A stretch of 64,000 bases of DNA. It comes from Neoarius graeffei (taxonomy: Eukaryota; Chordata; Actinopteri; Siluriformes; Ariidae). How positions within the stretch are numbered: position 1 is the first letter of the stretch; each line of letters begins with the position of its first letter. The notes beneath the pieces were generated by a model that was not told the origin of the DNA, searched no databases, and worked only from the letters and a program-made list of their open reading frames with translations. The stretch spans positions 12,135,051 to 12,199,050 of the forward strand of contig NC_083570.1 in assembly GCF_027579695.1 (NCBI RefSeq). Direction: 5' to 3'. A program made the position numbers and the translations under genes. This document shows positions 40,373 through 57,000 of the stretch, one piece after another.

Positions 40373-41980
40373 CTTCAGCAGGAACAATCAGTAATCAGTG
40401 CGCAGGCGTGTGATTGGTCACTGACCAGGTAGGAGGAGTTAGCAGCGGTGACGGTTCCGTGCGGTTTGACGAAGGCCGGTTTCAGTTTGCTCATCTGCGC
40501 CATGCTGCTGGGACGAATCCCATTATCCTTAGAGACGATGTCCTTCCCTGTAGGAACACAACACAGCTGCTTATAATAAACAAACACCCTGTATGTGTGT
40601 GTGTGTGTGAGAGAGTGAGAGAGAGAGGCGCGCTCACCCGGCACTTTGAAGCTGATGACGTCACTGAGCAGCCCCTCATCCTGAGCTTTCTTTGCCAGAC
40701 TGTGAGAGCGCAACGCAAACTCGTCCTGCTCCAAGCGGGACACGGCGAACGCTGCGGCCAGACGATCCGCAGAGTGACCCATCGTCTCCGCCGTGGAGAA
40801 CTCCGCCACCGCAGGCAGCTGCAGAGAAAGAAAGAATGACCAAATAAAATGGAGAGTGATAGAATGGATGGAGGAGGAGGAGGAGTACTACCTCTGGTGT
40901 GAAGTGGGCGAGTCTGATGGAGCCGAGCAGAGCCAGTCTCGCTCCGAGAGTCTTGGCCTTGTTCAGAGAGAGCATTGTCTTCCTCATCCTGCGGCTGTGA
41001 CGGATCGGGACGTCAGACATGAACTCCACTCCACCGGCCACCACAATGTCACACTGACCGGCGGCAATCAGACCCACAGCTACACACACACACAGTGTAA
41101 ATATATTCAGCAGAGTCAAGATGTAGAATTACAATTTGATACAAAAAGTGCTTAGGGCCCCCCCCTCCTTCAATCGCTTTCCTGCTTGGGGGCCCCACCC
41201 CTCCTTCAATCGCTCTCCTGTTTGGGGGCCCCCCCCCTTCAATTGCTACATTGGTTATTATAATTATTGTCCATTTTTAATTAAATCCTTTTTAACTGGA
41301 TTTAGGTTTCCTTTCCTTTTATAGCCGACTCTTATGGTGATGATACACGGGGCAACTTTTTGGGCAATGTTGCCGAGCAATGTTGCTGGGCAATTGCGTT
41401 TTGACTCTTTTCTATTGAGATTGGGCAACATTGTTTCTTTCTGAATGGTTTTGATAATCTCTGGCAACTTTTTGAGATAAGCCAATCAGAACGCGAGTAT
41501 CGAGTCATGTGACCTCCGGTGAGGTTCGGATCAGAAATTTCAAACAAATATGGCGGCCGCTCAGTGTCAGTGGAGTGAAGAGATGGAGAGACTCCTCATC
41601 TGTTTTTACGCCGGTAAGTTATTTTAATATTCTATATGGAGGAATTTACCTCACCAAAGCTCTAAAAAACAACAGACAGCTTGATTAAATGGTCACAGCA
41701 AAAATTAAGACATCGATTTTTTTTAGCTAACTGTAAACTGCCGTTGCTAACTGTTGTTGCCCATTGTTAGTTGCCCTGAAAAGTTGCCCTGTGTCTCACC
41801 TAGTTGCCCGTTGCCAGCAACATTGCTCGGCAACATTGCCCAAAAAGTTGCCCCGTGTATCATCAGTTTTAGAGTGTGAGAGAGAGAGAGACCTGTAGTC
41901 ATGGCTTGGTTGGAGGAAATGCAGGCCATAGTGACTGTGTGAGCAGGAATCTTGTCGGAGAATCCGGCACCCAGGGCAGC

Positions 41981-42015
<35 letters not shown>

Positions 42016-45000
42016 TTATTGTCTACACACAGTGGATATAAAAAGTCTACACACCCTATTAAAATTATCGGTGAAATAAGAGACCACGAGAAATAATTTC
42101 AAAACTTTTCCCACCTTTATAGTCCATGGGCCAGAGCAGAAGTCGGTACCACCAAAGGTGGCAAAATCTACCAATGATTTTTGTAATCCTCTATGTCTGA
42201 GGGATGCGTTTTGGTATGATAACCTTTTCCAAGTGGTAGCCTTGTTGTATTTTTACAAGCTTTTATACCCACACCCAGTACAGTTCACCATACATGCCTA
42301 TGTGTAGTTATAGGTGTATGCAAGTGTATGGGACGATGGGATATGGCTTAATCTAATGTTATATCATATGTACGCACCATAGGCATTTAGAAAATATAAG
42401 GATTAGATGGATAATTTGGCTTTCTATGAATTGCATAGGCCAAAATGTATCAGTCCTACACTTTTTCGCCTCTATAATATAGGATTAGATTGAGGCAAAA
42501 GACTGAAGGAGGGTGGGTCAAATCCAAACTCTTGCTATTTCACATCTACAGAGTATAGGCTTTCAGAATATATTCTGGGTTAGATGGCTAAATACACACA
42601 ACGTAGCTATTTTAGACCCATAAATAATAGTTGTCCATTGAAAACCAATGCATTTCAATGTAATGCAACATGCATTACAGAACTAACGTATAGTGGAATG
42701 GAGGAAGGTGGAGATGTCTCAATGCACATTATATCACATCTAAATATACCCTTTTATAAAATATATACTTTAACTGTTTTCCTTAATGATACCAGAACTG
42801 TAATATTCGGACATTAAACACAGAGATGCCTACCCCAAATTTTAAATTTCAGTATTCTTGAAAACATTTTTCAGTATTTTGGAATGACTTTCAGTAACAT
42901 TAATTTATGCGCATTTCCATTATAAAAGAGGTGTATATACCAATATGTTTAACATTTAAATTATTAAAAAGAACTGTTTTGTGTGAATTTAATAATAATG
43001 TTAAATTTATATAGCGCCTTTCAAAAAACCCAAGGACGCTTTACAATTATAGACAAGGAAAGAAAAAAATAAAAAGTCCATCAAGTAGGGGTCAGGATGT
43101 AATTCCCGTGGTGTAGCAGCCACAGTCCCACCAAAAGGCGCACGAAAACAAGTCCCACATCTCCAGCACCACCGCCGTGATGCCGCCAGCAACATCGCTC
43201 GAACACCACGCCATGGATCCACAAAGCGAGCAGCGAAGCTCCACAACGCAAAGCGCTGGTGTCCCCCAAACCGCCTGCACAGCCGCCGCGACGCCACCGA
43301 GCAACATCGCTTGGAACATCACGCCAAGCGTTAAAGCGCAGAGCGCTGGACAACCATGATGTAAATTGAGCAACGAGCTCACTGCAGTCCATAGCTGGGA
43401 GTGCAGGCATTGCCCACGGCGAACCAAGGCCTGGAGGGAACTGACGCCCAAAACTGGGTCCGGAGCTACACCACAACCGGCAGACAAAACACTCAAACAT
43501 CAAACTACACAAACACACAGGAAAGAAAAAAAAAAAGAAAAAGAAATACACTAAGTAACTTTAAAATGCACATTGATAAAACTTGCTGAATTCGTGCTGA
43601 GTTTCTCAAGAAGAAAAGAAATATATCACAATGGAAAAATAACTTTGTTCCGCCCGAATAAGTTCCAAATCTGTGCTCAAATCAGAATTTAAGGGAGTTG
43701 TACTCAATAACGTGCAATATGACTCGGGTAGTCAATGACATGGACAGGCTTTAATTTTCAAACAAATTTTGCATACACTGTACACACACACAATCTTGCC
43801 TATAAATACCCGGGGGAAATGATGGGAAAATTGTCATTATTGAAGATGCCATGCCTAAGCCAAAATCAACGTGAACAGGCCATCGGGATGTTGCGTGCCG
43901 GAAGTACACAGACAGAGGTCGCCCGGCACTTCGGTGTTCATCATTCGACCATTTCCCGTTTGAGTCAGCGTTACAGACAGACAGGGAGCACCAGGGATCG
44001 TCCACGCCCTGGTCAGCCTCGAGTCACGACGCCAGTTCAGGATCAGCACATCAGGCTAGCTCACCTCCATGACAGATTCCTGACACCCTCAGTCACTACT
44101 GCTGAGACCCCTGGACGACACAGACCCAGAATCTCCAGCATGACGGTCCGAACATGGACCAACTGTCACTTTGAATTTTTTTATTGTGAATTAATTCTTG
44201 AGTTTGACAATAAATGTCCTTTATCGATGTTTCAAGATGTGTGTGCATTACATACAATATCATAAATTTCAAATATATGCATGGATCTAAAGTGATATCG
44301 TGTTGAATTCCATTGTGTTTTTTTAAACTTGCTTAGTATAAAATAAGAGCTCCAGTGAGAAGCGGCAGCCAGAACGCGCACGACGTACTCTCAAACGGAA
44401 AAAAAAAAAAGGATGACCAAAATGCGAGCAGCCATCAACTGAATTTCCACTCAACAAATTTCTAGAGCATACAATATATCACATTTTTATAAATACAATA
44501 GTGTTCCCTGTTTGCAGACATTACGGTTGACTACCAATCAGTGGTATTGAATATAACTCCTCAAAAGTATTATATTATATTGCCTGGCAAAATGTTCTAC
44601 CTGTTAACGGATTCTAATAAAATTAAAAAAAAGAATTCTTATTTCATGCCAAAGAGAGTCCGACATTGTTATCTTAACGTCCCAATATATAAATACTTCA
44701 GCATAATGCTTCAGAAGAGACATTGAATAAAATGACATTTATAATTGTATTTAAAACAGTGGAATGATCAATTTTTTGCCACAATCCCAACAACACTAAT
44801 CATAAAATTCTGTTTTTGATCATGCTACATGTACATTTGCACTTGCAACACTGAAAAGACTTTGAATTAAAGAAGTACAGCCAGTGTTTGATATTTCAGT
44901 GAATAAAAATCAGACATGTAAAAAGAAACTGAATAAGTTTAACTCACATTTCATGGCACTAATCGGCAAGTTCAACTCCAAGCACAGGTCAACCATCACC

Positions 45001-48000
45001 GCTTCAGCACGGGTCACATCCCGTGTCTTTTCATCCACAGATTTCGTAAAAAACTGCTGGATACCCCAGATTTACTTTCCGCCTGACTCGCCATTTCAGA
45101 ATACTCCATGTTTTTTTTTTTTTTTGTAGTTGACATGCCGCGTGCAGTCATCGCGACCACCACGAGTGATGTTAATGTCAGTTCTACACAGTTTGCAGTG
45201 CGCGTATCCATTGCCCTTTTGACTGGGTGTAATGCACGGCCATTCTACCGTATCGAAAATAGCGTGAATGTGCGGAATCTGCGCATGTCACACACAGCAT
45301 GTGTGGTTGTCGTAAAAATAAATAGCCTAGCCGTGAATCGCGCATGGATTGAAAAAGTCGCTTGGACATTTAAAAACAACTCACTGGAATTTAAGACTTT
45401 ATAATAATTCCGTACAGAATAACACTGTTTGCCGTAACATCGTATTTACGTAACTTTTCCGTACAAAATACGGCCAATCCGTACTAGTAGGCATCTCTGT
45501 AAATGATATTAAAAGACAACACATGCTGATTCTGCATAACTGTATTAAATTCAATTTTTCCAATTTGCCTGGAGATGTGTGTGTGAACATTCTACAGTAC
45601 AACCATAAACTGACAACTTTAGAATGTTAGAGTGTGTTGGTGTTTGCTGAGCCAGTGCTATTCTGTGCAAAAAGAGGTCAAGTAGACTCCAGTTCACTCC
45701 CCCCTTGCAGGGACGGCTTAAAGCTGCATATACAGTGTGCCAATTATCAGGCCGCAGTCTGGAGGCACTGTCTGGAAGGACAGCCCGACATACCTGAACC
45801 AAAAGGACATGGATGGACAACCAGTGACGAAGGTACAAATACAAACCATGAACTAGAATTCACAATTTTGCTATATTTATTATATAAAACAGTAATTGTC
45901 AAAACGTTACTTATTTTACAGGAATGCTGATGGTAGACTGGATGCAGGGACTGCCAGCCCCATTGGCTGTCCTGGAACTTTTGGCCTGCCAATGTGTACA
46001 GACCTGCAAACTTCATGACTATTGAGGTATTTCACCTGACGTCACAGGGTCACGTGACGCCCCGGTGTCCGCCATTTTGAAGGTCAAGCTAGCTAATGTC
46101 AACAACATAGTAGCTAGTATGTTACTGTAGCAATGTTTACGTTCAGTCATTTGGATGACTGTTAAAACCTTTCAGTCTCAAGTTTTTCCTTTACTGTATT
46201 TACTAGTTTACTGTAATTATGATCCGGCAGCTATTTACACCGGATCCAGTGTAAATAGCTGCCGGAGCGCGCTCCAGCTTGCTCCCCCTCAAATTAAGCA
46301 GCGCGCTCCGGCTTGCTCCCGGAGTGCTCCGGCCGAGGTTCCGGAGCGCGCTCCGGCAGCTATTTACACTGGATCCGGTGTAAATAGCTGCCGGATCATA
46401 ATTACAGTAAACTAGTAAATCCAGTAAAGGAAAAACTTGAGACTGAAAGGTTTTAACAGTCATCCAAATGACTGAACGTAAACATTGCTACAGTAACATA
46501 CCAGCTACGATGTTTTTGACATTAGCTAGTGCTAACAGCTAGTTGCTAATACACTGCTACAACAGACACCGACCCTAATAATACAGTTCTTGGTCATTGC
46601 CTGGTAACAGCAAATTTATAACGGGCCATGTCTCAACAGACTAAGAAGTTATTTCAATGACATTTAATAACATTTTGTTTATCCTGAGGACCGAAAGTAA
46701 ATGAAAATGTGAACAAACCTTAGCTGTAATCAGATGGCGACCACCGGCTCCAGGGACGACCCGCTGATGTAGGCATGTTACCCAGCCTGACACAAAATAT
46801 TTGTAGGCATCCAAACTCTTATACGCTTTCAGATCAATACCTGTGTATGGCGATGGGTTTTTAACGACATAGGTATACAGATCATGTGGGCCGAAGTCAG
46901 GTAAAGACGAGGGCTTCGTGTACTTCCGTACGTCAGTGAACAATCCTGGTGGAAGCAGGTAAACGTCGTTCTCTAAGCCTGCTAACCTCAATTTTTGCAA
47001 ATACCTCTCCCTCTGCTCGCCCTGTAAATGCCCTATGTCGCTGGATAGTGAAGGTGTTTTCTGCATCTCGCTCCTTTTTCTTTTATGTTTTTCGTTTGTC
47101 GCCTTCCTCGCATTCAAACTGATTCGAGCCGTGACGTCCAAAATGGCAGCCTAACGATGCATCACATGACTTGGTCACGTGGGTGAAAAACCTCAATTCC
47201 TGTCTTTCAAACAAACTAAAATGCACAGAATTGTGTAGGTTACAAACTTGCAGCAATCAGGTGGAAGAAGTGAAGGAGGAGGAGGAGGAGAACATACATG
47301 GCAGTCTGGAATATGATGATAGTGACAAAGATTAAAAAGCTTGCAATGAACAAATAGGTTTGTGAACAGTAGAGGTTTAGTTGCGATTTTACTGTTGTGT
47401 GTCATGTTCTGCTGAAATAAAGTGGCACCATTTCCATTCTTTCACTGAAAAGTTACTGTCATTGAATGCTAACTTATGTGAGTGAGAGAACACTTGTAAT
47501 ATTCTTCTTTTGCAAATACCCCTCTGATAGACACCTCTTGATCTAGACCTTTTGCCTGAGTCCTTATTAATATGTTCATCAAACATTTGATCACATTCAT
47601 CTATAAATACCACTGAAGCAAAGTTGAGTCATTTTTGCAGCCAAGGTATTATATAATGCCTATTCGCCATTTAATCTATATATTTTCTGAAAGCCTAGAC
47701 TCTATAGATGTCAAAAAACATGACTTTGGACTTGATGCATCCTTTTCCATCATTAGTTATATAATGTACTTTGCATTACATTGAAATGCATTGATTTTCA
47801 ATAGACAGCTATGGGTTTCAGGTCTAAAATAACTGTGTAATGTGTATTAAGCTATCTCAGCCATATATTTTCTAAAGGTCTATATACTATATACTCTGGA
47901 TGTGATATAATGTGTATTGAGACACCTCCCAACTTCCTACATTCCTCTATACCTTAGTTCTATAATGTACTTTGCGTTAGAGGTCTGCTCGGGACAGAAT

Positions 48001-51000
48001 TTTCAGTCCTGCTCCCGCATTGTGCAGTCCCGCTCCCGCAAAGAATTATGATTTTCAGTCCCGCTCCCACCCGCGCCTGCCATATTTTGTCCCACTCCCG
48101 CCCGCAAATCCCGCATGATGCAGACGTTCGCGTTATTTCTCACGAAAGTTCTTGTCATTGGCTTGGGGAATTAAACATGCTGAGCTTAGCTGAGCTCTCC
48201 ACTGACCGATCCTTCATTTATTGTTTAGACTCTGACATTCTGCTGACACATTCCAAGTTGAGCGCTCTCGCTTTGATTGACAGCTCTCGGTTTGATTGAC
48301 AGCTCTCGGTTTGATTGACAGCTCTCGGTTTGATTGACAGCTCTCGGTTTGATTGACAGCTCTCGGTTTGCGCACTCGCACTCCCAAGTCTGTGGCGTTA
48401 CGATTCCAACCGCGATTTCATTCTCCTCTCATATGAAGTGCTGCGCAACCACAACCAGCTCCTCAGATTATACACTGTCTATTTCTAGCTTTAAATTGAA
48501 CAATCTGTGCGATACACAGTCCTTTTTAATACTTAGGACTAATACTCTTGACTTTTTAACGGTAAATGTACCTCTTTTTAAAGCAGCACTTACTTCTGAA
48601 GCACTGTGAGCTTCACTAGAGGAGCTCTGCTCTTCTGCCATGATCGGAGATCTCAAACACGGAAGAGCGGAAAGGAATTGGAAACGTACGCGAGATTAGA
48701 CCATAGGCAGTGTTGGGCACGTTACTTTCAAAAAGTAATTAGTTATAGTTACTTTTCCCAAAAAGTAACTGAGTTAGTAATGGAGTTACTTTGTCATTAA
48801 AGTAACTAATTACCAGGGAAAGTAATTATTCTGTTACATTTTGTTACCCCCCCCCCAAAAAAAAAAATCAAATTCAATTAGTGTAATCATAATAAAAGTG
48901 AATGTTAAATGTGTTTAATGACTGAAATGGACACTTAACAGAACCAATCAGTAACGTTATCTACACTATATTAATATTTTTGTGGGACAATGTGAGAAGA
49001 CATCAAATTTAATATATTTTTGTAGTTATTAAAATTGTTACTAATTACTGGCCACTGACGAGGACAAACGCTTTGTTCCTCGACAATGTGCATTGCACGT
49101 ACACATTTTTGCCTTTTATTTCAAGTAATGAAAAGCAATGGCTGTATTTCCAATGTGAAAGCGCAGTGCTGGGCTGACCGCTCGCCATCGCTGTGTCTTC
49201 CAATTGAAAGAGTGCACAGTAGTGCAGTAGGCGTGGCCTATGTATGTTGTCCAAATCTACTCTGATTGGCTTACTGTGCCGTTGTCTCGCGTCTCCCCGC
49301 CCCACACTAAAGCAGAGTAAAGAAAGGCTGAACGAGCAGCGTGCCAGATTAAAACAGCTTTAATAAAGTAACGCATAGTATTTTATTTAAGTAACGGGAA
49401 CGGCGTTATAACGATGTAAAAAGTAATTAGTTAGATTACTCATTAATAAAAAAAGTAACGCCGTTTATTTCTAACGCCGTTATTCCCATCGCTGACCATA
49501 TGCATCTTAAAATGTTTTTATTAATGCCAAATAAAATATCCAGCACAAATTATATACGATAGACATAAATTAATAATTTATAAATTTTATTTTAAACACG
49601 TTTTTAAGTTAGCGGGACTGCAGCTCATCACCTCTCCCGCCCGCGCCCGCATTGTGCACTCCCCCTCCCGCCCGCAATGAGCTTTCAAAATTTGTCCCGC
49701 GCCGCACTGCTTTGCGGCGGGTCCCGCGGGACTCGCGCGGGAGTGCAGTGCTCTACTTTGCGTTACATTGAAATACATTGATTTTCATTGAAATACATTG
49801 GACAGCTAGGAGTTTCAGGCCTAAAATAGCAGTGTAATGTATATTAACCTATCTAACCCATATATTTTCTGAAAGCCCGTAATCTCCAGATGTGCTATAG
49901 CAATAGTTTGGATTTGACCCACCCTTCTTCAGTCTTCTGCCTCAATCTAACCCTATATTATATTGGTGAAAAAGTGTACGACGGATACATTGTGGCCTCT
50001 GAAATTCATGGGAAGCTAAATTATCCATCCAAACTGTATATTTTCTAAATGTCTATGGTGTCTACATGTGATATAACATTGATAAACACATATTCCATCC
50101 TCCCACACACTTGCATACACCTATACCTACACATAGGCATGTATTGCGAACTGTACTGGGTATGGTTATAAAAGCCAGGAAAAATATAAGAAAGCTACCA
50201 CTTAGAGAGGGTTATCATACCAAATGTCCCTCAGGGATGGAGGATTACAAAAATCATTGGTAGATTTTGCCACCTCAGGTGGTACCGATATGTGATTTTT
50301 TGGGTCCTGCCCATGGACTATTAATGTGACTTATAACCTGTACAATTCAATTGCAAAACAAAAATCTGTTTGGGGGAAAAACATAAAAAACGTACAATAA
50401 GCTGGTTGCATAAGTGTGCAGACCCTTAAACTAATACTTGAAGCACCTTTTGATTTAATTCCAGCATTCAGTCTTTTTGGGTTCAGACCTGCCATCAATT
50501 AAAATGACTCTGATTAACCCCAAATAAAGTTCAGACATTTACTCAGTTGCATCCTGCACCAAAAGCCAGGGTTCACAGAGAGCTTACAAAGCATCAGAGG
50601 GATCTCATTGTTGAAAGGTATCAGTCAGGAGAAAGGGACAAAAACATTTCCACACCATCAGATATACCATGGAGCACAGTGAAGACCGTCATCAAGGGGG
50701 CGTCGTGGCTCAGGTGGATGGGGCGCCATACCATGAATCCGGGTACCCGGGTTCGATTCCGACCCGGGGTCATTTCCCGATCCCTCCCCGTCTCTCTCTC
50801 TCTCTCCCGCTCATTTCCTGTCTCTGCACTGTCCTATCCAATAAAAGGTGAAAAAAAAGCCCAAAAAAGACCATCATCAAGAAGTGGAGAAAATACGGGA
50901 CAACAGAGACATTACCAAGAACTGGACGTCCCTCCAAAACCGATGAAAAGACGAGATGAAAACTGGTCAGGGAGGCTGCCGAGAGGCCTACAACAACACT

Positions 51001-54000
51001 GAAGGAGCTGCAGGAATTTCTGGCAAGTACTGGTTGTGTACTACATGTAACAATCTCCTGTATTCTCCATATGTCTGGACTATGAGGTCGGGTCAAAGAG
51101 AAACATCCAGGCCCGGATAAAATTTCTAAAAATATACATCAACTCTCCCAAAAGCATGTGGGAAAATGTGTTCTGGTCTGATGAAACCAAGGTTGAACTT
51201 TTTAGCCACAATTCCAAAAGGTATGTTTGGTGCAAAAACAACACTGGGCATCACCAATAGAACCCCATACCCACGGTGAAGCATGGTGGTGGCAGCATCG
51301 TGTCTTGGGGTTGTTTTTCTTCAGCTGGAACAGGGGCTTTCGTCAAGGTGGAGGGAATCATGAACAGTTCTAAATACCAGCCAATTGTGGCCCAAAACCT
51401 TCAGGTGTCTGCTAAAAAGCTGAAGATGAAGAGGAATTTCATCTTTCAGCATGACAATGACCCCAAAAATGTTTGGAACGGCCCAGCCAGAGCCCAGACC
51501 TAAATCCAGTTGAAAATCTGTGGGGTGACCTGAAGAGGGCTGTGCACAAGACACGCCCTCGCAATCTGACAGATCTGGAGCGCTTTTGCAAGGAAGAGTG
51601 GGCAAATATTGCCAAGTCTAGATGTGGCAGGCTGATAGACTCCGACCCAAAAAGACTGAATGCTGTAATTAAATCAAAAGGGTGTGTAACTGGGTGTGTA
51701 TGCTTTTTATAGTTCAACCTTTCACACACACTGACCTCTCGGGCCACGTTGCTGGTCTTCACTTCCTGTATGACGGTTCCGTAGACGATGTAATCCACCA
51801 AGTCTTTAGGAATACCAGTTCTGTTCAGCAAACCTCTGCAACACACACACACACACACACACCGTGTCAGTACAGAGTTATGGACGTTACAGAACACGAC
51901 CCAATCTTTTTTCCTGTAGCTTGAACACACTCACTGTAAAGCTCCTCTGGCCAGATCGTGGGGCATCAGATCCAAATATCTAAAAAACAAACAAAAAGTT
52001 AAATAAACCCTGAAATCACTATTCAGCACCGTTCTGTTGTGTTTCCAGGTTAATTAGTTATAATCAAATCTACAAGTCAGTCTGCGGATGAGACCCTGTG
52101 CTCAAGCGGCTCGTCTTGCATGTAGGTTGGTTCTTGTGGGCGTGGCTTATCCAGGGATGAGAAACCATAGTAAATATATCACTTCTCACACCAAACACAA
52201 ATTTAAAAAAAAAAAAAAAAAAAACCCACTAATCAGTGTGAAAGCTGGCCGTCTGATCTACCTACATGCTGATGTCACACACTCGGCTTTGTTTACAGAT
52301 TAGATTCGCAAAGCGAGCTACTTCCTTCTCCTTCTGAGATTTATCTTCATTCGTATCGCCTCTACACCCACATACACGTTACACGTCAGAAACGTAGAAT
52401 TGCCACATGGAATTTTTCAACCTGGGCTAGAACTTTTAACCCAGTTCATAATTTGCTCCTTGTATTTGAGAGACTTGCGATATCTATCTATCTTGGGTCA
52501 GGCTTTGGATTTTAAAATTCGGCGTATCAGACGCTCGTTGGCCGTGCTGTGAAAATTCTCCATGCAGACGCTCATCTAAATTTCCAAGTCTGTCATTAGT
52601 TAACTCCTGAACATTTATCATTAAAGGGGAACTGAAGGCAAATTCGTCATCAAAATTCTCTCATTTTATTAAATACAGGAATGCATTATTGTGTCGCTGC
52701 TATAGCAAGTTATGAGTGTTTGAAATATGCTCTGTAATACATCAGTCCATATGTCAAAGCGACGACCGTAAACGAGATTGGTTGAGACCTGTGCGAGACA
52801 TCGTAGGACGGAAGTAAAACGTACAGCGGAAATCCAAGTCACCAACATCTGCCAATGTTCCCCGTGTCCGAAATCGCTCACTCATTCACTACTCCCTACA
52901 TAGGGAATTACTCTATAGAGGACTATACAGTGAGCTGATTGGTAAAATGAAAAAAAAAAAACGCTTTCGGACACTACTCCGTCGCGCTGGTATTTACATC
53001 ATTACTGTTGCACAATTAAAACACGCCAGCTCAGTCGGCTGGTGGGTTTCAAAATAATAAACACATGCATGTGTTTTTGTGATAAATCCATATTATACTG
53101 GGTGCATTTCCAACATTAATCAATACAAAGTACCTGCAGCTTTCAGTTCTTTTAAATCAAGGCTGAATACTTTTTCTTCTTCGTCGCTGCCTTTTATTAA
53201 ATCAAATTTCAGACTTCTAATTTGATTTGTCAGCACGACCGCAATGCATGATGGGATATATTGCTTTGGTTAGTCCCCATCGTTGTACACTACTTTTCAT
53301 GATGCACTGTGGGATACTTTGAGTGCAATATATAGGGTGTAAATAATCCTCACTAAGGTTTCGGACAGCGCTACAAAATGCCGTCCTCACTATACAGTGC
53401 CCTATATAGTGAGTAGGGAGCGATTTCGGACACGGGTTGTCAAAAGACACACGCGCCCTCTTTCGAATGCTGATGTAATCAAGCCGGAAGTTTTGTTTGT
53501 TTTGATAGCGATCAGGAAAGTTTGAAAAAAAAAAAGTAGGCAGTAATCGTCATTTCAACTCGTTTGGAAAACAGTTTTCAAAATGGCGGCACTGACAACC
53601 TGGCTGACGCTTCACGTTTCGAAGTCTCGCACAAGTCTCGTGAAGATCGCGCGGATAAGCGACGCCTGCCGTGGACCAAACAAACTAAATTCAACACGGC
53701 TAAAAACCGAATAGGCCGAGAAGTATCATATTTAATTGCAATTAGTTGCCAATACGAGTCAAGATATAAGGTTACTAAAACCAAAAACGTCATTGAATAA
53801 CACGTTAATTAAGAAAGAAAGCAAGTTTAAAAATGACTTCAGTTCCCCTTTAAAAAGCTTATAATCTCTGCTTTCCAAAGAAATGTATCTGGTTAAGATC
53901 TGTTCAGTATTTTGGGAGGCAGGTTGAAGTCGGCACAACAGAGTAAAAACTCTGCTTGTGGGGGCGTCGTGGCTCAGGTGGATAAGGCGCCATACCATAA

Positions 54001-57000
54001 ATCCGGGGACCCGGGTTCGATTCTGACCCGAGGTCATTTCCCGATCCCTCCCCGTCTCTCTCCTGCTCATTTCCTGTCTCTACACGGTCCTATCCAATAA
54101 AGGTGAAAAAGCCCAAAAAAATCTCTTTATATTAAAAAAAACAAAACAAAAAAAACCCTCTGCTCGTGGGACATCAGGAAACTGAAAGCGGTCAGGCGCT
54201 CTCTCTCTCTCGATCAATTTATGACTGGATTACTCATCAATATCATAACTTATTTATAGGGATGTTCTCTGGTTCTGTTCTCTCACTGTTTCTGATGAAG
54301 GATTCAGCAAAACTAGCAGGCGGAAAATTTTGATGTTATGATTCACGGGAGAATTTGAAGCGAGTTTTCATAGATTTACCTACTTATTTTTTCAAATCAA
54401 ACTGATTCCTGTGAATAAATAACTCTTTTAGAATATAACTGGAGTTGTTTTGATGAGAAATATTGATCTTAGGAGTCAGTTTAATTATATTTTAAAAAAC
54501 CAGAAGTCAAAAACACGAGTGTCGATAACTCAACTGAAAATGTGAATTGTTTATTGGATGTGGATCAGACAGGTTTTTTTTGAGGTTCGCCTTGAAAGCT
54601 GTGAATATTAATCGAAATAATCATTTATTATTATTCTTTTATGTAAAACATTAGTAGGCACTACTGAGAAATACAAAGCTCTACAGAGCACAAAGACGGG
54701 ATTAGAAATAATCTTATTACTTAAGATTAAGACTAGACTTAATAACAAATCCAAAATATTAAGGTGTTGGGTTAAGAATCCGAAGGTTCCGAGTTCGAAT
54801 CCTGGTTAAGTATGAAAAAAAGGTATGTTTATTTAATAATAAATAAATTAAAAAAGGGGGGGGGGGAGCTAATTAGGGAGACAGGAATAGGTGGACAGAG
54901 ATAAGAGGAAATACCCGACAGATAGGAAGAGAGAGAGAGAGAAAAGAAGTGATGGAAAAAAGTTTATAAAAAAAAAAAAACCACCACCATGGTTGAAATT
55001 TTTGGACCAGTCACATCTAACTTTCTTCTATTTTTACAGGAACTAAAGAAACGTCTGAGCTGATCGTTTGGATTGGTCGCTTTACCTCATTAATATTTAA
55101 TTTGTGTAATACTTAGAAGCTAGATGACGTTTCTTAAAAGCTTTGACTTTGAATCCTGGATACAGGAAGCAAGTCAGAACAAGAAATTAATTCCCCCCCC
55201 GCACACACACACTTACGCAGTGCCAGACTGTAGGAACGGTGTACGGACTCCATCGACCAGAACAATGTTCTTCACCCCAGGCTTAGCCAGTGTCTTCTTA
55301 CTTTTAACTGTTAATACATTTAAAAAAATAAACGAAAATTAATAATAAATAATAATAATTGCATTATTATTAATTGAACAAAATCAGACTACAGTACTGG
55401 TGTGTGTGTGGGATAGACCTTGTGCCTGTAGAGGAGCAGATGTCCCGAGACACCGTGCAGCTGGGGGAAGAGAGAGAGAAAAAGCGCAAGAGACAGATGT
55501 TAAGTTTAATATTAAAGTGCCACACAGGACTGATCCAGGATCAGATTACATTATGCAGGAGAGAAGCTCAGTGTCTTGAATATCATGATACAAAATATTG
55601 TCCTGACGAGACGAATTTGCTGCTCGTTTCAGTTTAATTTATTATAGTGGTGCTTGAAAGTTTGCGAACCCTTTAGAATTTTCTATATTTCTGCATAAAT
55701 ATGACCGAAAACATCATCAGATTTTCACACAAGTCCTAAAAGTAGATAAAGAGAACCCAGTTAAACAAATGAGACAAAAATATTATACTTGGTCATTTAT
55801 TTATTGAGGAAAATGATCCAATATTACATATCTGAGAGTGGCAAAAGTATGTGAACCTTTGCTTTCAGTATCTGGTGTGACCCCCTTGGGCAGCAATAAC
55901 TGCAACTAAACGCTTGCGGTAACTGTTGATCAGTCCTGCACACCGGCTTGGAGGAATTTTAGCACATTCCTCCGTACAGAACAGCTTCAACTCTGGGATG
56001 TTGGTGGGTTTCCTCACATGAACTGCTCGCTTCAGGTCCTTCCACAACATTTCCATTGGATTAAGGTCAGGACTTTGACTTGGCCATTACAAAACATTCA
56101 CTTTATTCTTCTTTAACCATTCTTTGGTAGAACAACTTGTGTGCTGAGGGTCATTGTCTTGCTGCATGACCCACCTTCTCTTGAGATTCAGTTCATGGAC
56201 AGATGTCCTGACATTTTCCTTTAGAATTTGCTGGTATAATTCAGAATTCATTGTTCCATCAATGATGGCAAGCCGTCCTGGCCCAGATGCAGCAAAACAG
56301 GCCCAAACCATGATACTACCACCACCATGTTTCACAGATGGGATAAGGGTCTTATGCTGGAATGCAGTGTTTTCCTTTCTCCAAACAGAACGCTTCTCAT
56401 TTAAACCAAAAAGTTCTATTTTGGTCTCACCCGTCCACAAAACACTTTTCCAATAGCCTTCTGGCTTGTCTACGTGATCTTTAGCAAACTGCAGACGAGC
56501 AGCAATGTTCTTTTTGGAGAGCAGTGGCTTTCTCCTTGCAACCCTGCCATGCACACCATTTGTTGTTCAGTGTTCTCCTGATGGTGGACTCATGAACATT
56601 AACATTAGCCAATGTGAGAGAGGCCTTCAGTTGCTTAGAAGTTACCCTGGGGTCCTTTGTGACCTCACTGACTATTACACGCCTTGCTCTTGGAGTGATC
56701 TTTGTTGGTCGCCCACTCCTGGGGAGGATAACAATGGTCTTCAATTTCCTCCATTCGTACACAATCTGTCTGACTGTGGATTGGTGGAGTCCAAACTCTT
56801 TAGAGATGGTTTTGAAACCTTTTCCAGTCTGATGAGCATCAACAACGCTTTTCTGAGGTCCTCAGAAATCTCCTTTGTTTGTGCCATGATACACTTCCAC
56901 AAACATGTGTTGTGAAGATCAGACTTTGATAGATCTGTGTTCTTTAAATAAAACAGGGTGCCCACTCACACCTGATTGTCATCCCATTGATTGAAAACAC

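Follow-up and report, generated by a model that had tools for sequence, protein, structure and literature searches.

The intron of hadhb at 41981-51735 (minus strand, 9755 bp) in the 64,000-nucleotide stretch of Neoarius graeffei DNA analyzed here (the window) consists almost wholly of a nested stack of transposons, as an earlier sequence-only reading had proposed, with 65 bp lying outside the layers. It very probably arose from a short intron that grew by serial nested insertion while its splice sites and reading phase stayed intact. The layers and the intron remnants at their edges are as follows.

41981..42029, minus strand: intron remnant on the acceptor side, 49 bp, including the AG acceptor that precedes the next hadhb exon
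42030..51719, plus strand: Tc1-like element, the outermost layer, with HTH_SB (below cut-off) and DDE_3 matches and a degenerate right end
42120..50320, plus strand: inverted-arm element, target duplication TTA, about 2.6 kb once its inserts are subtracted
42821..45499, plus strand: element X, with CAGAGATGCC as termini and TAAACA/TAAATG as a duplication best taken to be 6 bp
about 42996-44417, plus strand: block of 1.42 kb inside X that includes a Tc1-like piece (about 43732-44262)
45667..45834, plus strand: exon remnant whose protein is akin to those with an XPG fold and a CXC domain (74% identity to P0001, 61% to P0002)
45921..47332, plus strand: C-terminal CXC-part remnant, split by the ISL2EU-like element
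46023..47195, plus strand: ISL2EU-like element, target duplication AT, termini common to other copies
47978..49755, plus strand: hAT element, target duplication CTTTGCGT
48708..49494, plus strand: fourth element, within the hAT, target duplication ACCATAGG/ACCATATG, 7 of 8 bases alike
about 50697-50868, plus strand: SINE inside the Tc1, flanks GACCGTCATCAAG/GACCATCATCAAG, near-identical over 13 bp
51720..51735, minus strand: intron remnant on the donor side, 16 bp, with the GT donor

The exons flanking the intron were placed with a human HADHB query, and the splice sites were then read directly. On the minus strand the donor GT lies at 51735 and the acceptor AG at 41981, in phase 0 (..VARE|AALG..). 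Judged from the intact sites and frame only, splicing of this intron is probably kept. A search within the window for the first hadhb coding exons found none. The two remnants measure 49 and 16 bp, slightly different from the 45 and 23 bp or so estimated earlier, and 30 of the 49 bp on the acceptor side are an AC repeat (41983-42012). A SCARNA7 candidate at the acceptor scored 30 bits, where the gathering score is 65, and was rejected, the TG repeat being its most likely cause. A 52-bp sequence occurs twice in opposite orientation with 100% identity (41338-41389 and 41814-41865), either within the following hadhb intron or close to it.

Other copies of the layers were sought in 2.34 Gb of genome in 38 contigs. 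For the outermost layer, this gave 2611 candidate places, and among the 40 that were scored, the 39 besides the window are 92-94% identical. The Tc1 transposase survives as fragments, with a DDE_3 match above cut-off (E 1.1e-6) and an HTH_SB match below it (E 3e-6). Of nine copies retrieved, two are whole (L048 and L049). TA stands directly before the 5' end in all nine, with TACAGTGG exact at that end in five, while the window has CA; in both whole copies the right end is a long inverted repeat with TA after it. The window element resembles fish Tc1-like transposons in its terminal inverted repeat CAGTGGATATAAAAAG, in the TA before the 5' end of its relatives, and in its DDE_3 and weak HTH_SB matches, but differs in having TA on neither side and, at the right, a short degenerate end in place of the long inverted repeat. 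Since the TA duplication is gone and the right end is degenerate, at least one deletion or rearrangement must have taken place there. An empty site for the Tc1 was sought in one scan of viral contigs, and none was found.

The 8.2-kb inverted-arm element lies within this Tc1, and its site is uninterrupted, with a single TTA, in all nine fetched Tc1 copies. A search with a 510-bp query from the element yielded 14 scored candidates in 17 rows. One row is the window, 12 represent 11 other copies, and the last four are weak matches to a single place. Twelve loci were read (L030-L041), L040 and L041 being about 1.5 kb apart and counted as one copy. Both ends were read in just one other copy, L036, where TTT flanks the element on each side, so that the target duplication is 3 bp long in both copies (TTA in the window). 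Within the window copy, similarity between the two arms is 84% (K 0.18 over 539 sites). Between copies, by contrast, it is 92-97% for the left arm (87% in L035) and 97-99% for the right (92% over 63 bp in L035). An arm thus resembles its counterpart in other copies far more closely than the left and right arms of the window copy resemble each other, so their divergence was inherited. We therefore rejected an insertion date for the 8.2-kb element based on its arm divergence, which was already present at the time of the family's spread and dates nothing.

What remains of protein-coding sequence in the window arm element consists of C-terminal pieces only. The remnant exon at 45667-45834 matches 88 of 120 related proteins, and the pieces of the CXC-part remnant match 49 and 38 of the 120. 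A structure model of P0002 has an XPG/FEN1/Exo1-like fold, and the relatives of the remnant protein often carry a CXC domain; Pfam searches with P0001 and P0002, and a PDB sequence search with P0001, gave no match. No transposase was recognized among the scanned frames of the window copy. The nuclease of AcademX transposons is of the XPG type. AcademX elements are described as having 3- or 4-bp target duplications and an encoded nuclease (PMC10045372). Given the 3-bp duplications, which fall within that range, and a remnant protein related to proteins of XPG/FEN1/Exo1-like fold that often have CXC domains, the 8.2-kb element most likely belongs to AcademX, as a non-autonomous and decayed copy, though this name is provisional. 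It resembles AcademX DNA transposons (PMC10045372) in its 3-bp duplication and in the nuclease fold of the relatives of its remnant protein. It differs in that the window copy keeps C-terminal pieces alone, with no transposase found, and in that its arms are unequal and longer than 600 bp. The titles and abstract openings searched held no case of a fish Academ element with an XPG protein, though print may still hold one. At 45627-45847, L032 and L035 contain several hundred more bases, differing from each other, which suggests that the window copy either underwent internal deletions or derives from a mosaic subfamily.

Harbinger elements prefer TWA targets, and the TTA duplication in the window would suit them. 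An assignment of the 8.2-kb element to PIF/Harbinger rather than AcademX is nevertheless improbable, since the TTT of L036 is not a TWA duplication, and since the remnant protein has XPG/FEN1/Exo1-like, often CXC-bearing relatives. The 3- or 4-bp duplications and nuclease ascribed to AcademX (PMC10045372) likewise speak against it.

Three insertions lie directly in the 8.2-kb element, namely element X, the hAT, and the ISL2EU-like element. The site of X (2,679 bp long, or about 1,260 bp with the inserted block taken out) is uninterrupted in all eight arm-element loci that span it, with TAAATG once in seven and TAAATT in one. Two other X copies share the ends seen in the window: L046 has GTTTCT on both sides, and L047 shows no clear duplication. 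Among 815 candidate places for X, 40 were scored; the 39 besides the window are 96-97% identical, and 37 of the 40, window included, end at the same base. X had been called hAT-like, a label left unsupported because its duplication, TAAACA/TAAATG in the window and GTTTCT in L046, is best read as 6 bp instead of the 8 bp of hAT elements. A zinc-finger-like frame in X (45099-45287) has no Pfam hAT or BED match, and a protein search from this frame found no relative. That X belongs to an undescribed DNA-transposon superfamily recently spread in the genome is a speculative idea to which we give little credence.

Within X lies the 1.42-kb block, which the sequence-only reading missed. It is lacking in both other X copies read (L046 and L047) and contains a truncated second Tc1-like piece with an HTH_23 match. 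With this block counted, two branches of the stack are four deep.

The site of the ISL2EU-like element is uninterrupted in all nine arm-element loci spanning it (with just a few bases to its left in L040), and the empty sites read GT where the window has AT. Seven other copies of the element were compared (L002-L008; ends from L003, L004, L005, L007, and L008). AT flanks both sides in the window, L003, L004, and L005; L007 is without AT at the right, and the match in L008 ends early. ISL2EU elements duplicate AT, and the AT duplication at 46023-47195, together with termini common to close copies, is what likens the element to them. The wider group containing ISL2EU has duplications of 0-4 bp (PMC10045372). 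A 169-aa open frame at 46644-47150 has no Pfam match. The element also encloses a palindrome (46089-46529) with 187-nt arms that are 98% complementary. An opposite-strand match over the same stretch occurs in all seven other copies, which makes the palindrome a feature of the family. Parts of it (query 263-358) are repeated several times at many further places in the genome.

For the hAT, all nine spanning arm-element loci are uninterrupted, seven with CTTTGCGT and two with one base changed. L023 has the same hAT termini flanked by a different 8-bp duplication, GCTCCAGC. Both the 8-bp duplication and the TAGAG termini of 47978-49755 are like those of hAT elements; the names hAT and ISL2EU are to be taken as putative, drawn from termini and duplications. 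The fourth element, flanked by near-identical 8-bp repeats, sits within the hAT as had been proposed, and in L013 a copy of it is flanked by GGTAAGAC on either side. No empty site for this element turned up, the sole other hAT copy read (L023) having an unrelated interior at that place. The hAT also holds a 19-bp tandem repeat of 5.6 copies (48264-48370).

The SINE is missing from both whole Tc1 copies. ARAGORN found no tRNA over 41500-54500. Two further SINE copies lie in the window, at 147-313 and 53960-54120, and are 88% identical to the intron copy by BLAST.

Empty sites in other copies were thus found for five insertions, and for the block in X in two copies. Together with the layer boundaries and duplications, they bear out most of the order originally proposed: a Tc1 in the intron; in the Tc1, a SINE and, with a duplicated TTA, the 8.2-kb element; in the latter, X, the hAT, and the ISL2EU-like element; and an overall depth of four. 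Since the termini recur in independent copies, the layers are not products of chance. The deeper a layer lies, the more closely it matches its best other copies, from 92-94% identity for the Tc1 and mostly 92-99% by region for the arm element to 96-97% for X and 98-99% for the ISL2EU-like element, although these ranges overlap and the Tc1, arm-element, and X figures come only from the copies that scored best. For the hAT and the fourth element, the comparison used a single sampled copy each and so says little.

High-copy repeats and a palindrome with 187-nt arms are hard to assemble, and the stack might on that account be an artefact of assembly. We regard this as extremely improbable, because every insertion lies at a site with duplicated bases, because the flanks join exactly as in the uninterrupted copies, and because the palindrome itself is present in each of the seven other ISL2EU-like copies compared.

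The layers suggest the following course of events. First, the Tc1-like element would have entered a short intron of hadhb, of which 65 bp are left, and the Tc1 would next have received the non-autonomous AcademX-type element of roughly 2.6 kb, with a 3-bp target duplication. That element would in turn have taken in X, the hAT, and the ISL2EU-like element; X and the hAT would each have received one further insertion, and the Tc1 a SINE. Growth would thus have proceeded by serial insertion into DNA that was already dispensable, leaving donor, acceptor, and reading phase unharmed, and it was presumably neutral.

An ancestral length of 70-75 bp had been put forward for this intron. The 65 bp retained set only a lower bound, because the Tc1 lacks its long right inverted repeat and its TA duplication, and some intron sequence beside the Tc1 may have been lost. 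A survey of teleost introns places the peak of short introns at about 76 bp, with few below 75 bp (PMC9438311), and the remaining 65 bp fit an ancestor of this short-intron class. For such an intron, the entry of a transposon is a large relative change, again according to the survey (PMC9438311).

Teleost introns are also argued there to have mostly shrunk, in parallel, during teleost evolution (PMC9438311), and we therefore keep a longer ancestor as a rival account. In that case the intron was long, and most of its unique sequence was deleted next to the Tc1, either before or after the stack formed. The degenerate right end and missing TA duplication show that a deletion or rearrangement did happen, and the parallel decrease argued for in the survey (PMC9438311) points the same way. 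We consider this account unlikely, because both remnants adjoin splice sites and their 65-bp sum is near the teleost peak of about 76 bp given there (PMC9438311). Growth from a short intron is the reading we prefer.

Intron growth by nested insertion is a known, ordinary kind of event. The hadhb intron resembles the transposon insertions described for teleost introns in two studies (PMC9438311, PMC2996927), in which short introns change length class and repeats add size; here, single layers and their order are read at one locus. What is new is the reading of each layer, the corrections on X and on dating, and the AcademX assignment. The locus makes a case against dating elements by their inverted arms, whose difference here was inherited, and, through X, against naming superfamilies from termini alone. 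As a layer-by-layer record, it indicates how an intron that was probably near-minimal can join the long class: a first insertion makes way for others, which settle inside it, and the splice sites of the gene survive.
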